A stretch of 27,222 bases of DNA. Origin: a virus. The number at the start of each line of letters is the position of its first letter. Positions within the stretch are counted from its first letter, which is position 1. The stretch lies in IMG/VR virus record IMGVR_UViG_3300030329_001721, positions 1-27,222 of that record. The stretch is one strand, 5' to 3'. Shown here piece by piece: positions 20,082 through 27,216 of this stretch. A model generated the notes under the pieces. It saw only the letters and a program-made list of their open reading frames with translations. It did no database searches and was not told the origin of the DNA. The position numbers and the translations under genes are program-made.

Positions 20082-20318
20082 TTAACTCCCTATTAGTTTA
20101 TCAATTTTTTCGTCTAATTTGTCTAAACTATCGAAAATTCTTTGCATGTTATTTTGTAAGTCTTGTTTAGTTACATAACGAGAAGGTATTTCTTCTCTTG
20201 TCTTATTAATTAATATTTCTAACCTTTGTATGTTAGAGGTATTTGTTTTAATACTATAAATTATAGGAACATAAACAAGTGTAATAAAAGCATTCCACAA
20301 AATAATAGGATTGTCCAT
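20082..20318 (-). CDS. small membrane/coiled-coil lysis-region protein
   Basis: This encodes 78 residues from an ATG at 20316-20318, chosen because it overlaps the endolysin stop by one base and has GGAG six bases upstream. Residues about 3-22 form one membrane helix (IILWNAFITLVYVPIIYSI), followed by a long coiled coil with two heptad stretches (NIQRLEILINKTREEI and a LDKLDEKIDKLI end). The shape fits small phage holin accessories. Together with the 3TM holin and M15 peptidase it forms the lysis set. Antiholin or spanin-like roles are possible; no lipobox is seen. Confidence 0.55.
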   Translation of the reverse strand: MDNPIILWNAFITLVYVPIIYSIKTNTSNIQRLEILINKTREEIPSRYVTKQDLQNNMQRIFDSLDKLDEKIDKLIGS

Positions 20319-20689
20319 TAATAACTCCATATGTGGGGCCTTGGTCTATTAGAATCTGATTCAGCAATATCTAAATGAATAAATCTAGCACCGCCTTTTT
20401 GGTTAACGCCAACACCAGTAAAGCCATACGCTGTTGCTTTTGATACAACTTCAAGCGCTTTATCTCCCCTTACACCTATGTCAGCAGCTAAACCTAGTGC
20501 ATGAGCGCCAGGTGTTGATTTCTTTTTTTCTATAGGATGATCTGGACACCTATAACCACTTGTAATAACAAAAGAGAAACCCAAGTCTGATCTTAGTTCT
20601 TGAAGTTTATCTATAAGAAGATGGTCAATATTATTTTTACCACAATGTTGGCAAGCAAATTCTTCTTCTTTAAAATTCTCCCAACTCAT
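20318..20689 (-). CDS. M15 family peptidase, phage endolysin-like
   Basis: This encodes 123 residues. The N-terminus FACQHCGKNNIDHLLIDKLQ, then SFVITSGYRCPDHP, matches the peptidase M15_3 (PF08291) family. Zinc ligands are His63 and Asp70 in GAHALGLAADI and His105 in FIHLDI. These enzymes cut cell-wall peptide cross-links, either during lysis or in the tail tip. Lack of a signal peptide and the holin gene directly upstream (touching stop and start) favour lysis. All catalytic positions are present. Confidence 0.85.
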   Translation of the reverse strand: MSWENFKEEEFACQHCGKNNIDHLLIDKLQELRSDLGFSFVITSGYRCPDHPIEKKKSTPGAHALGLAADIGVRGDKALEVVSKATAYGFTGVGVNQKGGARFIHLDIAESDSNRPRPHIWSY

Positions 20690-24042: not shown

Positions 24043-24664
24043 TATCTAGTGTAGATGCTTGTGTAATATTAAAAGTACGGCTTCCACCTGTATGATCTAG
24101 GTAGAAATAACCACCCTGATAACCGCTGGCAGTAAAATTAACAACATTATCAGACCCATCAATATCCATATAGTTGGTAGCTAAATCATAATTTATAGTA
24201 GAAGTAATTTCGTTATTACTACCATTAATAATCCAATCTAAATCTAATGTACTCGCTAACGCTGATGTGGCTTGACTTAATGTAAATTCGTTTGAATCTC
24301 CAGTAACTTGAATGTTCAAATTACTATCGTCTGCGCCATATGTATTATCTTTATCTACATTGATATTGAAAATGTTGCTGTCTCCTGTGAATTCAAAAAA
24401 TCCTGTAAAGGTGTCAGCAAGAATGTCACCAAGGAATTGGTTACTAGAACCAATTTGGTTAATATCCAATGTCATAGTAATACCATCTAAGTCTAAGGCA
24501 GTCATATCTCCAGCCGTTGCGTCTGCTCCGCCTATAATATTTCCAGAACCAAGTTGTTCTAGGTCTAGGTTAGCAGTTGCACCGCTTTGATCTACTGATA
24601 CTTCGTTGTCTGCACCAAATACAAACAGGGGCAGTAACAGTAAACTAATTATTATTTTCTTCAT
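23957..24664 (-). CDS. curlin-repeat-like exported protein (CsgA/CsgB-like)
   Basis: This encodes 235 residues from an ATG at 24662-24664; a longer frame to 24691 begins with TTG. Residues 1-18 are a signal peptide (MKKIIISLLLLPLFVFG, cleavage before ADNE). The mature part consists of imperfect 18-25-residue units: SVDQSGATANLDLEQLGSGN, LDINQIGSSNQFLG, FTGDSNIFNINVD, IQVTGDSNEFTLSQ, INGSNNEITST and IDGSDNVVNFTAS. The Gln...Gly-Ser/Asp-Asn spacing resembles curlin repeats, which stack as amyloid beta-strands. Two cysteines lie near the C-terminus. It follows CsgG directly (20-base overlap), so it is the likely secretion substrate. Curlin similarity is clear in the first units and weaker later; true amyloid formation is not shown. 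Confidence 0.65.
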   Translation of the reverse strand: MKKIIISLLLLPLFVFGADNEVSVDQSGATANLDLEQLGSGNIIGGADATAGDMTALDLDGITMTLDINQIGSSNQFLGDILADTFTGFFEFTGDSNIFNINVDKDNTYGADDSNLNIQVTGDSNEFTLSQATSALASTLDLDWIINGSNNEITSTINYDLATNYMDIDGSDNVVNFTASGYQGGYFYLDHTGGSRTFNITQASTLDNDWLKILSTGSNGTLCVIQNDGGTAVGC

Positions 24665-25478
24665 AACTCCAATAGCCCCTCTCGTAGCCAATATTTATTA
24701 ATTGTAATAGCGCACCCTCTATAGCTTTTTGTAAAGCTAGGGTCGCACTCTCATTTTCCGACATTCCAATCTCTAATTCAACTAATTCTGTAGATTGTTC
24801 ATAAAAACGAAATAAATCTTGAGACTGTCCGTAACTAAATATGGTTTTTTGAGAAGTAACTTCTATTAATATTTCTCCCGTTGCAACAGACACCATTCGC
24901 AAAGAAACAGTTAGTATGTCTTCTCTATATTGAGTAGAACTTCCCACCCCCAGGTATCTTGCCCCTATACCACCAGTCCTGATATTGGTGTCATACGATA
25001 TAACTGCTCCTTCCATTAATACTCCAGCAAATAACAGGGGCATTAAAGGTTTTTTGCCGTCTTCTTTTTCAAATTGCTCTCTAGTGGATCGGATTAATTG
25101 CCTTTCTTTTGTAAGATTATCTAAACCAACCCTTTCAACAACTCTAAAAAAATTACCACCTGATGCATGTTTTAAAGCTCTTATTAATAAAGTGTCTGGT
25201 GCTTGCGTTATTGCGCTACTAAATAATGCGAATTGAGAATTGCTTTTTCTTTGCCCTGTTTGGTCAGAAAAACTATTGCCATACACAGCAACCACTGGTT
25301 GTATTGTTGGTGCTTGTACTTCTTGTAATTCTTTGGATTGAAGTTCTAATATACTGGCAACCCTAAGAAAGTCTTTTGCCATATGGTCGTCATAGGCATC
25401 TTGCACTCTAGCTAGTGAACAACTAGAAAGTAAAATCACCAACAGGAAGGCTAATGGTCGTGACGTTTCCATCTTCAT
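24645..25478 (-). CDS. csgG: CsgG-like curli secretion pore lipoprotein
   Basis: This encodes 277 residues. The signal ends in the lipobox LSSC (Cys20), so an outer-membrane lipoprotein is expected. The body matches CsgG: VVAVYGNSFSDQTGQRKSNS, LIRALKHASGGNFFRVVERV, GLDNLTKERQLIRSTR, LFAGVLMEGAVISYDTNI, RTGGIGARYLGVGSSTQYRE, then VSVATGEILIEVTSQKTIFS and the ending ALLQLINIGYERGYW. In curli systems nine CsgG subunits form a 36-stranded outer-membrane barrel that exports curlin. Length equals the bacterial protein. It overlaps csgF by 56 bases and the curlin-like gene by 20, so expression is coupled. CsgE, CsgC and CsgD are not present. The family call is very strong; that it exports the adjacent product is inferred. 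Confidence 0.95.
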   Translation of the reverse strand: MKMETSRPLAFLLVILLSSCSLARVQDAYDDHMAKDFLRVASILELQSKELQEVQAPTIQPVVAVYGNSFSDQTGQRKSNSQFALFSSAITQAPDTLLIRALKHASGGNFFRVVERVGLDNLTKERQLIRSTREQFEKEDGKKPLMPLLFAGVLMEGAVISYDTNIRTGGIGARYLGVGSSTQYREDILTVSLRMVSVATGEILIEVTSQKTIFSYGQSQDLFRFYEQSTELVELEIGMSENESATLALQKAIEGALLQLINIGYERGYWSYEENNN

Positions 25479-25974
25479 CGGTTATTTTTAGAGTAATAAT
25501 TCCGTCCTCAATCCAATACTCTATGATGTTACCCAACAACTTTAATATTCCTTCTGTTTGTGGATTTTCACCAAACAAGTTATCAATTAACTGTCTGCTT
25601 AGTTGTGCAAACAGCCTACTTTCTAAATTTCTATAAAACCTAGCTAAAGTTGTATTATTTTCTTCTCTTTCTGCTGCTTCTTTTAGCGCTTCTATTTCAG
25701 CCTCCAAAGCTTCCTTGCGATTGAATTCTTGATTTTCTATAGTCAGATAGTGTGAGCTTGTATTAACACCGCTAAATGAAGGGTTCTTAAATTTGTGAAC
25801 TATCTCGTCAGCAGTAACATTATGTGTAAATGCTATTAAGGTGATAGCAATAATCGCCATAAAGACAGCTATGGCCCAAGCAGTAAAAGTATCTCGGCGT
25901 TGTTGTTTTTCTCTAGCCTCTTTGTCTGCCTTGCTTGGCCTACCTCTTTTTCTTTTAATCTTTTCTTTGGTCAT
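25423..25974 (-). CDS. csgF: CsgF-like protein with basic N-terminal extension and membrane segment
   Basis: This encodes 183 residues from the ATG at 25972-25974. A frame to 25992 starts with TTG. Residues about 57-70 (DEIVHKFKNPSFSGV) match the CsgF opening, normally reading FQFRNPNFGG after the signal peptide. QLSRQLIDNLFG and the ending ITLKITDEDGNVTTISLP-VGDFTF also match CsgF, which seats on the CsgG pore and nucleates curlin. The first 30 residues are unusual: IKRKRGRPSKADKEAREK is basic with an AT-hook-like RGRP, then residues 32-50 form a membrane helix. This could be a long signal peptide (cleavage near VTA-DE) or an inner-membrane anchor. Residues 85-120 add a coiled coil absent from the usual protein. 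It overlaps the upstream gene by 20 bases. Confidence 0.85.
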   Translation of the reverse strand: MTKEKIKRKRGRPSKADKEAREKQQRRDTFTAWAIAVFMAIIAITLIAFTHNVTADEIVHKFKNPSFSGVNTSSHYLTIENQEFNRKEALEAEIEALKEAAEREENNTTLARFYRNLESRLFAQLSRQLIDNLFGENPQTEGILKLLGNIIEYWIEDGIITLKITDEDGNVTTISLPVGDFTF

Positions 25975-26305
25975 CACGTTCTGCTTTTGCAATTTTTTCT
26001 ATATCTATTAAGTTTGGTACACCCAATAAAGTTTTTAATAAAACGTCTTGGCGAATGCTTTGATTGTCCATAGCTCTTACTCTATCAATTAAGGAAACTA
26101 TGATTCCGTACTGTCCATCAAGTTTAGTGGTAACTCTTTCTTCCATGTTGTCTAAACTCGTTTGTACTTTATCATCTAAAGTATCAAGTTTAGTTTCCAT
26201 GCCATCAATTATTCTATTGATTAGCTTCCAAACAAAAATACCTAGTCCTAGTGCTGCTGCTATAGGAAAGCCAAGTTCTGTTATTACTGATACTAAATCA
26301 TTCAT
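25955..26305 (-). CDS. holin-like membrane / coiled-coil protein
   Basis: This encodes 116 residues. The N-terminus has one membrane helix (ELGFPIAAALGLGIFVWKLI), followed by a long coiled coil (IIDGMETKLDTLDDKVQTSL, then NMEERVTTKLD). One membrane helix plus a coiled coil resembles BhlA-type small holins or bacteriocin-associated membrane proteins. The C-terminus is charged. It starts eight bases after a TATAAT, so the message could be leaderless. It overlaps csgF by 20 bases and lies just after the cationic peptide gene. Holin activity is suggested by shape and place only. Confidence 0.55.
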   Translation of the reverse strand: MNDLVSVITELGFPIAAALGLGIFVWKLINRIIDGMETKLDTLDDKVQTSLDNMEERVTTKLDGQYGIIVSLIDRVRAMDNQSIRQDVLLKTLLGVPNLIDIEKIAKAERDDQRKD

Positions 26306-26313
26306 TACAAATG

Positions 26314-26343
26314 ATTATAGCAACTATTTTTTCTTATTTTGAA
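26314..26343 (-). promoter_or_regulatory. possible promoter of the csg/cyclase cassette
   Basis: On the minus strand a perfect TATAAT (26314-26319) lies 18 bases after TTCAAA (26338-26343), a four-of-six -35. The predicted start would be within two bases of the holin-like ATG at 26305, giving a leaderless transcript that then covers the csgF-csgG-curlin-fecR-cyclase genes. AT-rich chance is possible. Confidence 0.35.
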
Positions 26344-26446
26344 TAAACCAAGCTGATATTTTTTTATAGGCATCTTTTAACCAAGACCATACTTTCTTTG
26401 AAGTTTCTTTGATCCAGTTCCATGCTTTTTGTAAATATATTTTCAT
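26324..26446 (-). CDS. 40-residue cationic, tryptophan-rich amphipathic peptide
   Basis: ATG at 26444-26446 has GGAAG seven bases upstream, a good ribosome site. The product reads MKIYLQKAWNWIKETSKK, then VWSWLKDAYKKISAWF and a basic end (IQNKKK). It has five tryptophans and eleven lysines in 40 residues with only two acidic residues. Hydrophobic residues recur every 3-4 positions, so it should form an amphipathic helix that binds membranes. It fills the gap between the lipoprotein and the holin-like gene. Such peptides can be lysis or antimicrobial factors; no family is recognised and no signal peptide exists. Confidence 0.6.
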   Translation of the reverse strand: MKIYLQKAWNWIKETSKKVWSWLKDAYKKISAWFIQNKKK

Positions 26447-26458
26447 AATTTATCTTCC

Positions 26459-26734
26459 TTATTTGGCACTCCACTCTTTTCCAACTTTAATTTTACCATA
26501 CGGGTTTGTTCCCTCTAAATCATTTGAGGTTTCGTACCCAACACCAACATCTATATAGACTCCATTAATATTTCTATATCTGTAACCAGTAAACAATATG
26601 TCGGCTGAAGTTTCGGGGTTGTCGTTAAATGGTTTTCCTTCTTGAAGGCTAGAAATGTGTTCAAGCTCTACAAAATAATAACTATTAGCACATCCAATAA
26701 AAAGGAATAAGGGCAATAGAGCAACTTTCTTCAT
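26459..26734 (-). CDS. small lipoprotein with outer-membrane-like beta segment
   Basis: This encodes 91 residues. The signal ends at LFIGC (Cys15), a lipobox. The mature part includes YYFVELEHISSLQEGKPFND, then GYRYRNINGVYIDVGVGYET and YGKIKVGKEW, alternating hydrophobic and polar residues like beta strands of small barrel proteins. Its ATG overlaps the stop of the gene before it as ATGA. It could alter the host envelope or block superinfection, as phage lipoproteins sometimes do. No named family is recognised. Confidence 0.6.
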   Translation of the reverse strand: MKKVALLPLFLFIGCANSYYFVELEHISSLQEGKPFNDNPETSADILFTGYRYRNINGVYIDVGVGYETSNDLEGTNPYGKIKVGKEWSAK

Positions 26735-26856
26735 TTCTTTTTCTTATAGCCAGAAGCGTAAATAGCTCTACCTTGTTTTTTAGCTTTTGCTTTTGATTTG
26801 TAAGTCTTTCCTGACTTACCCCACTTATATCCACCTTTTGTTTTTTTGACTGGCAT
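26731..26856 (-). CDS. 41-residue basic conserved phage protein
   Basis: ATG at 26854-26856 leads to a 41-residue product with MPVKKTKGGYKWGKSGKTY, then AKAKKQGRAIYASGYKKKK. About 40 percent of its residues are Lys or Arg. I know close variants with the QGRAIYASGY ending from many phages and prophages; their function is unknown, nucleic-acid binding being likely. Its stop overlaps the lipoprotein start (ATGA), supporting the reading. Confidence 0.7.
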   Translation of the reverse strand: MPVKKTKGGYKWGKSGKTYKSKAKAKKQGRAIYASGYKKKK

Positions 26857-26858
26857 AA

Positions 26859-27044
26859 TTAATGTATTGTGTGTTCTTCAATTAATAACAATTCATAGTT
26901 ATCGGTGAGGTGATCGCTAAACATAACCAACATTAAACTTTCGGCGTGTTTGGCATCCCTAGCACAAATATCTTCTCCAATATAAATATGACCACCATCC
27001 AATATTTCGACATGAAAAAACTTATTGTGAATTACCGCTTCCAT
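26859..27044 (-). CDS. small protein of unknown function
   Basis: This encodes 61 residues from the ATG at 27042-27044, preceded by AAGGA with an eight-base gap; the longer frame to 27074 starts with TTG. The sequence has EAVIHNKFFHVEILDGGHIY and ends LLLIEEHTIH, with one cysteine and several His. It overlaps the upstream coiled-coil gene by 23 bases. No family is recognised. Confidence 0.5.
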   Translation of the reverse strand: MEAVIHNKFFHVEILDGGHIYIGEDICARDAKHAESLMLVMFSDHLTDNYELLLIEEHTIH

Positions 27045-27216
27045 TGAACAGTCCTTGTGCTTGAGTTTTAGCAATTTGCCTTACTGTTTCTCTGTCCCTT
27101 TCCATTAGTGCATTAATCTCAGCAACATTTACTTGTGCGCCATACTTGGCTTGTATTTCTGCTGCTTTAATGCGGATGTCTGCTTCTGCCTCGTCCCTGT
27201 GTCTATCATCTTCCAT
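27022..27216 (-). CDS. small coiled-coil phage protein, possibly 5'-truncated by the window
   Basis: This encodes 64 residues from an ATG at 27214-27216, but the frame stays open to the window edge, so the true start may be further upstream. MEDDRHRDEAEADIRIKAAE, then IQAKYGAQVNVAEINALMER, is a charged helix. Proteins with AAEIQAKYG near portal genes are common in marine podovirus-like genomes. That hints that portal and terminase are just beyond the right edge. Function is unknown. Confidence 0.55.
   Translation of the reverse strand: MEDDRHRDEAEADIRIKAAEIQAKYGAQVNVAEINALMERDRETVRQIAKTQAQGLFNGSGNSQ

Follow-up and report, generated by a model that had tools for sequence, protein, structure and literature searches.

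A conserved tryptophan- and lysine-rich small gene beside the portal gene in uncultured phages related to marine podoviruses

The 40-codon frame described here is a genuine gene, conserved at the protein level. It lies in a stretch of 27,222 nucleotides (hereafter the window) that belongs to a virus record of 34,546 bases, IMG/VR IMGVR_UViG_3300030329_001721, and its source is an uncultured tailed phage related to marine podoviruses. We consider it about evenly balanced whether this accessory gene of the portal block encodes a peptide that binds a membrane as an interfacial helix.

Results

The peptide gene and its neighbours

A reading of the letters made earlier (the sequence-only reading) had pointed to a 40-residue frame with five Trp and eleven Lys and a good ribosome site, and both were found on the minus strand (Table 1). 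The translation, MKIYLQKAWNWIKETSKKVWSWLKDAYKKISAWFIQNKKK, begins with ATG and has a net charge of +9; no signal peptide is visible in it by eye. The Shine-Dalgarno-like AAGGAAG lies 7 nt before the ATG and overlaps the stop codon of the 91-aa lipoprotein-like gene, 12 nt past which the peptide ATG stands; a match of 6 or more bases is reached by only 18 of the 867 ATGs in the window. When synonymous choice was compared with that of twelve long window genes, the peptide gene had a codon index of 0.80, where the composition-weighted null gives 0.59 ± 0.07 (P = 0.003). An attenuator was considered for this region and rejected, no terminator-like site overlapping the frame.

Along the minus strand, in the 5' to 3' direction, the gene order is terminase, portal, a 71-aa ORF, a 41-aa Lys-rich ORF, a 91-aa lipoprotein-like ORF, the peptide and a 116-aa gene, followed by CsgF, CsgG, a curlin-like protein, FecR and a cyclase-like protein. 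The terminase was named by eye and by analogy, the cyclase-like protein by eye, and the portal through a relative 75% identical to it that matches annotated portals. FecR has a Pfam match at E = 3e-10; the curlin-like protein was recognised by eye, the Pfam curlin repeat giving only E = 0.58. Across 82 portal loci, the 91-aa ORF is labelled elsewhere only in the near-identical contig of L326, and it is possibly a recent insertion into the portal slot.

Table 1. Features of the window, with positions counted from its first base
Feature	Position	Strand	Evidence or remark
Peptide gene (40 aa, Trp/Lys, 11-residue units)	26324..26446	-	ORF, homologs, synteny, selection, helix model
Three 11-residue units (residues 8-18, 19-29, 30-40)	26327..26425	-	lag-11 autocorrelation 0.63
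Shine-Dalgarno-like AAGGAAG	26454..26460	-	6-base match to anti-Shine-Dalgarno complement
91-aa lipoprotein-like ORF	26459..26734	-	lipobox by eye
41-aa Lys-rich ORF	26731..26856	-	PHROG 31267, E 7e-10
71-aa ORF, TTG start, overlaps portal 3' end	26859..27074	-	conserved marker upstream of peptide slot
116-aa gene (earlier called holin-like)	25955..26305	-	membrane segment and coiled coil by eye
CsgF	25423..25968	-	PF10614, E 7e-19
CsgG	24645..25478	-	PF03783, E 5e-46
M15 endolysin	20318-20689		more than 5 kb from the peptide gene

Relatives of the peptide

Relatives were reached via the neighbouring gene, DNA patterns and alignments, and matches with E above 0.002 in the profile and ORF comparison were counted as chance and excluded. 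The family is present in 29 viral contigs besides the window, some of them possibly the same virus assembled twice, and its members there are 28-53 residues long. A filter for ORFs rich in Trp and Lys, applied to as much as 700 nt upstream of the 116-aa gene, retrieved the peptide in 1 of the 80 loci carrying that gene, some of which hold less than 700 nt of upstream DNA. This single case, the L001 contig, has 98% DNA identity to the window and encodes an identical protein, the sole in-frame difference being the stop codon. When 11,313 ORFs (up to 200 aa, from loci of the 116-aa gene, CsgG loci and the window) were searched with phmmer, L057 emerged as the one additional candidate (E = 0.0016).

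The DNA pattern of an ATG plus two Trp units matched 43 stretches. Among them are L274 and L315, whose 32-aa forms share 63% and 56% identity with the window peptide, and L301, L304 and L314 (the contig of L057), which like L057 encode a 35-aa form. Another pattern had the near-identical contig as its sole match. A further one matched at least 120 stretches, and the 80 of them that were read appear mainly as long proteins, which resemble tape measure proteins by eye, as an unrelated family of 40-43 aa, and as chance frames. The alignment search gave at least 600 stretches, with four confirmed among the matches listed, namely the contigs of L274 and L315 and two matches (L208 and L324) that sit inside long proteins of 431 and 532 aa. 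Bacterial and archaeal genomes, searched with alignment A3, yielded 38 pattern matches and no confirmed relative. The L401 row of this alignment lacks its Met and starts one codon late, and L401 was not in the selection test; the starts of L379 and L401 are uncertain because the ORF finder sets them 24 nt further upstream.

A second group of small Trp-unit proteins was observed in viral contigs. They start with MYFG or MYSYDD, and complete members are 55-68 aa long (L206:1363-1569, L269, L256, L282, L178, L188, L215 and L279); L206 stands among small basic genes and shares a contig with L065, where the 116-aa gene is present. The 40-43 aa family, MN[KQ]W[IL]WLK...NPMYS, occurs at 32 loci (L169:2264-2386, L182, L214 and others), has a likely membrane segment by eye and shares the DNA pattern, and is apparently unrelated to the peptide.

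Purifying selection on the frame

Conservation of the frame among related phages with a bias towards synonymous substitution, which the sequence-only reading had named as a check, was indeed found, and the substitution pattern indicates that the frame is under purifying selection among the relatives. Between L274 and L315 there are 9 synonymous changes over 15 sites and 3 nonsynonymous ones over 81 (pN/pS 0.06), and as few residue changes arose in 1 of 2000 random placements (P = 0.0005), it being kept in mind that all the pairs compared have small numbers of sites. The pair L341/L349 has 6 synonymous and 3 nonsynonymous changes (P = 0.0025) and L057/L304 has 3 and 2, the latter as a pN/pS count only. 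Distant pairs are less constrained than close ones. The pN/pS is 0.43 for window/L274 and 0.54 for window/L315 (each with 0 of 2000 shuffles), 0.52 for L057/L274 (P = 0.025), 0.64 for window/L057 (P = 0.016) and, as a ratio only, 0.51 for L357/L375.

A fixed slot beside the portal gene

The portal scan comprised 80 loci, of which 69 were kept because 300 nt or more follow the portal stop, the other 11 being too short. With a profile made from five sequences (E < 0.01), the peptide was detected in 15 of the 69 portal loci, so the gene is accessory; it must be taken into account that a displaced copy, as in the window (+576), could escape detection where little DNA follows the portal, and that three of the 15 contigs (L326, L315 and L322) hold one of the five sequences or an identical copy. 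Outside this count, L057 and L304, found through the peptide itself, also carry it at the portal. In 14 of the 15 cases the 71-aa marker is followed directly by the peptide gene, the exception being L326, a window-type contig where the 41-aa and 91-aa ORFs come in between.

The start pattern MKKYLIxxWxW matched 20 stretches in the viral collection. The 71-aa marker lies at most 400 nt upstream in all 20, and an 82-aa basic gene (PHROG 7595) at most 900 nt downstream in 18, those without it being L406 and L411. Moreover, the peptide ATG overlaps the stop codon of the marker in six of seven aligned loci, which suggests coupled translation. In the cultured phages HTVC106P and Venkman, no annotated gene separates the small post-portal gene from the one that follows it, as is expected since the peptide is accessory.

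A helix of 11-residue units

The lag-11 autocorrelation of the window peptide has P = 0.0001, or 0.0044 after the choice among lags 2-19. The product had been called amphipathic, and this is borne out by the hydrophobic moment of residues 1-35, which peaks at 98 degrees, the 11/3 angle, with a value of 0.50 against 0.19 ± 0.10 for shuffled sequences (P = 0.003); seven segments of six family peptides have their peaks at 98-101 degrees. On an 11/3 helical wheel that combines seven family members, including two near-identical ones, Trp holds 13 of 15 places at 0 degrees and 11 of 17 at 164, and Lys holds 15 of 21 at 196, 9 of 20 at 295 and 12 of 17 at 327, while Ile, Leu, Val and Tyr are mostly found between the two Trp edges. 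Trp edges the hydrophobic face and Lys stands just outside it. The wheel is not clean, for the 229-degree position, on the polar side, is off-pattern (Ile 7 of 17, Lys 5 of 17). AlphaFold2, supplied with five sequences, gave a single helix over residues 2-39 with a mean pLDDT of 84, which is weak evidence for a short peptide.

Family members vary by whole units. A 66-bp alignment gap, equal to two units, separates the long from the short forms: the 53-aa relatives have three units and end in KKRGRPRKKK, and the one-unit relatives, some of which keep this tail, are 28-32 aa long and helical over some 16 residues only (shuffle P = 0.033). All ten aligned members have the first-unit Trp in common, but not the tail. 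The helix of L357 has a net charge of -1. The polar face of the window peptide holds two acidic residues, and L274 and L315 have none.

The 116-aa gene and the curli cassette

The sequence-only reading had placed the peptide before a holin-like gene and a CsgG cassette. The neighbours are where it put them; neither the holin identity nor a functional link to the peptide is supported. The match of the 116-aa gene to PHROG 18771, of unknown function, has E = 7e-15; that to the holin PHROG 4898 reaches no better than E = 0.019, and no Pfam kinase domain was obtained at E up to 1. The gene accompanies CsgF and CsgG, preceding CsgF in pelagiphage-like contigs, and has relatives upstream of CsgG in four Melnitz records, annotated there only as hypothetical protein; it behaves as a companion of the curli cassette. 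A CsgG match was also noted in OR851715.1, a 1499-base phage record labelled Salmonella phage that carries no annotation and is possibly not phage sequence.

The HTVC023P-type pelagiphages, which are podoviruses, have a curli (T8SS) cassette in the same order, as described in PMC9599517. Close downstream of the window peptide, CsgF, CsgG and FecR follow this published order too, but the peptide is not a constant member of the cassette. Membership was considered and dropped, given that the relatives stand beside the portal with or without the cassette following. CsgF is present in 5 of the 15 peptide loci, the DNA considered extending at most 4.5 kb past the portal; it is absent from L367 and L375, which have the full 4.5 kb, and four portal loci have CsgF or the cassette with the peptide not detected.

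The sequence between the peptide stop and the 116-aa gene (26314-26343, minus strand) contains TGCTATAAT, a perfect match to an extended -10 box, and a partial -35; among the matches listed, this box is present only in the window's own record and a near twin. It could be an own promoter for the curli cassette. Promoter-like sites in the region are not in excess (9 found vs 11.6 expected).

Searches of families, phage records and literature

The window peptide has no Pfam or PHROG match at E < 0.001 or over the cut-off, and a 53-aa relative has none at E < 0.001. In tblastn against 50,697 phage records, no match of the window peptide was better than E of about 0.6, and the 53-aa relative had none at E up to 5. 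The only Rfam match was sub-threshold (17 bits vs a cut-off of 97). No such peptide is described in the titles and abstract openings covered by the literature search, nor is one mentioned in the portions considered of PMC9004378, PMC9599517, PMC7029224, PMC12819732 and PMC3271669.

Discussion

Trp at the lipid-water edges with Lys outside makes membrane binding the likeliest reading of the peptide, at roughly even chances. The gene is probably expressed with the portal and head genes, and the product would form in the cell one helix of 11-residue units, with Trp predicted at both edges of a broad hydrophobic face, Ile, Leu, Val and Tyr between them and Lys just outside. Such a helix would lie parallel to the membrane at the lipid interface, and the basic tail (KKK in the window, KKRGRPRKKK in several relatives) may hold an anionic partner, which could be lipid head groups, DNA or a phage protein. 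Alpha-synuclein and the apolipoproteins are lipid-binding helices with 11-residue repeats. The peptide shares with them the 11-residue amphipathic periodicity and the Lys flanking the hydrophobic face; however, the window peptide is Trp-rich and comes from a bacterial virus, and this is a resemblance only. Against membrane binding stand the off-pattern 229-degree position, the few helical residues of the one-unit forms and the displacement of the window gene from its usual place by two other ORFs. Moreover, tape measure proteins have the same 11-residue Trp spacing, and their Trp and Phe are described as anchoring other proteins (PMC3271669).

This last point leads to the strongest rival of membrane binding, an assembly peptide whose docking partner, through the Trp units, would be a head, portal or scaffold protein of the phage, which is possible although we hold it rather unlikely. 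The peptide is placed directly after the portal. Tape measure proteins have Trp or Phe, described as anchors for auxiliary proteins, at 11-residue spacing in a variable number of units (PMC3271669), and the peptide family has the same spacing and varies by whole units; they are long many-unit rulers of tail length, whereas the peptide is a single helix of 28-53 aa (40 aa in the window). Tape measure families account for four of the seven weak PHROG matches (E 0.049-0.53) and for 10 of the 20 weak ones in phage records (E 0.6 or worse), but none of these is significant. Furthermore, no tape measure gene was recognised by inspection among the window ORFs, and the peptide was not detected in 54 of the 69 portal loci.

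The sequence-only reading had likened the product to membrane-active peptides that could disrupt membranes at lysis. Its membrane part stands, in that the peptide is genuine, cationic, amphipathic and plausibly membrane-binding, but the lysis role is weakly supported, the gene being accessory and far from the endolysin. In its disruptin form, where a cationic amphipathic helix breaks the outer membrane after holin and endolysin have acted, we judge this role unlikely. It would suit the predicted short cationic amphipathic helix, and the Rz family PF03245 was not found in either of the two records searched, both possibly incomplete, so that an outer-membrane disruptor is not otherwise accounted for. 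Yet the peptide gene lies outside the lysis cassette, more than 5 kb away not only from the M15 endolysin but also from a 159-aa ORF beside it. Directly after the M15 endolysin gene, an 82-aa ORF (20082-20330) with an N-terminal membrane segment by eye was noted as a holin candidate by position.

Gp28 of phiKT, which we take to be the disruptin, sits between endolysin and holin, unlike the window peptide, which is beside the portal. No alignment of the peptide to gp28 was obtained at E up to 100, although disruptins are said to be diverse and a sequence relation is not strictly defining. Acidic residues in the polar face fit lipid-binding class A helices better than lytic ones, which speaks against lysis for the window peptide; this argument is weak because L274 and L315 have none. 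Occurrence in 15 of 69 portal loci and the short forms that keep one unit count against lysis too, and the one-unit relatives, with just 28-32 aa and a weakly cationic helix, seem ill suited to disrupting membranes. What the peptide would share with the phiKT disruptin, described in PMC12819732 as a short phage-encoded peptide with an amphipathic helix and antimicrobial effects, is the short phage-encoded amphipathic helix, predicted in the case of the window.

A wider proposal, which we hold to be quite unlikely, would make the family modular microproteins in which a membrane-lying Trp/Lys helix, made longer or shorter by exact 11-residue steps, is joined to a basic, AT-hook-like tail. At packaging or entry they would serve to hold the phage DNA, or the portal/terminase machinery, at the inner membrane. 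It is very doubtful that the peptide is instead a basic nucleic-acid-binding peptide whose AT-hook-like RGRP tail does the work while the Trp helix only oligomerizes: relatives do carry KKRGRPRKKK, and several neighbours are small, strongly basic proteins, but the window peptide, L274, L315 and L057 are without RGRP, and what the ten aligned members share is the first-unit Trp and not the tail. A chance open frame, which the length of just 40 codons might suggest and which the identical protein of the L001 contig does little to oppose at such DNA identity, can be dismissed with near certainty, being contradicted by selection, synteny and codon use.

Thus, a 40-codon frame spotted by eye proves to be a selected gene with one fixed place in related marine phages. 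As the peptide is separable from the adjoining curli cassette, the two are not to be explained together. Its variation by whole 11-residue units provides a natural length series for membrane-binding tests and, if membrane or portal binding is true, the peptide would offer a simple handle on what the accessory genes of the portal slot do.
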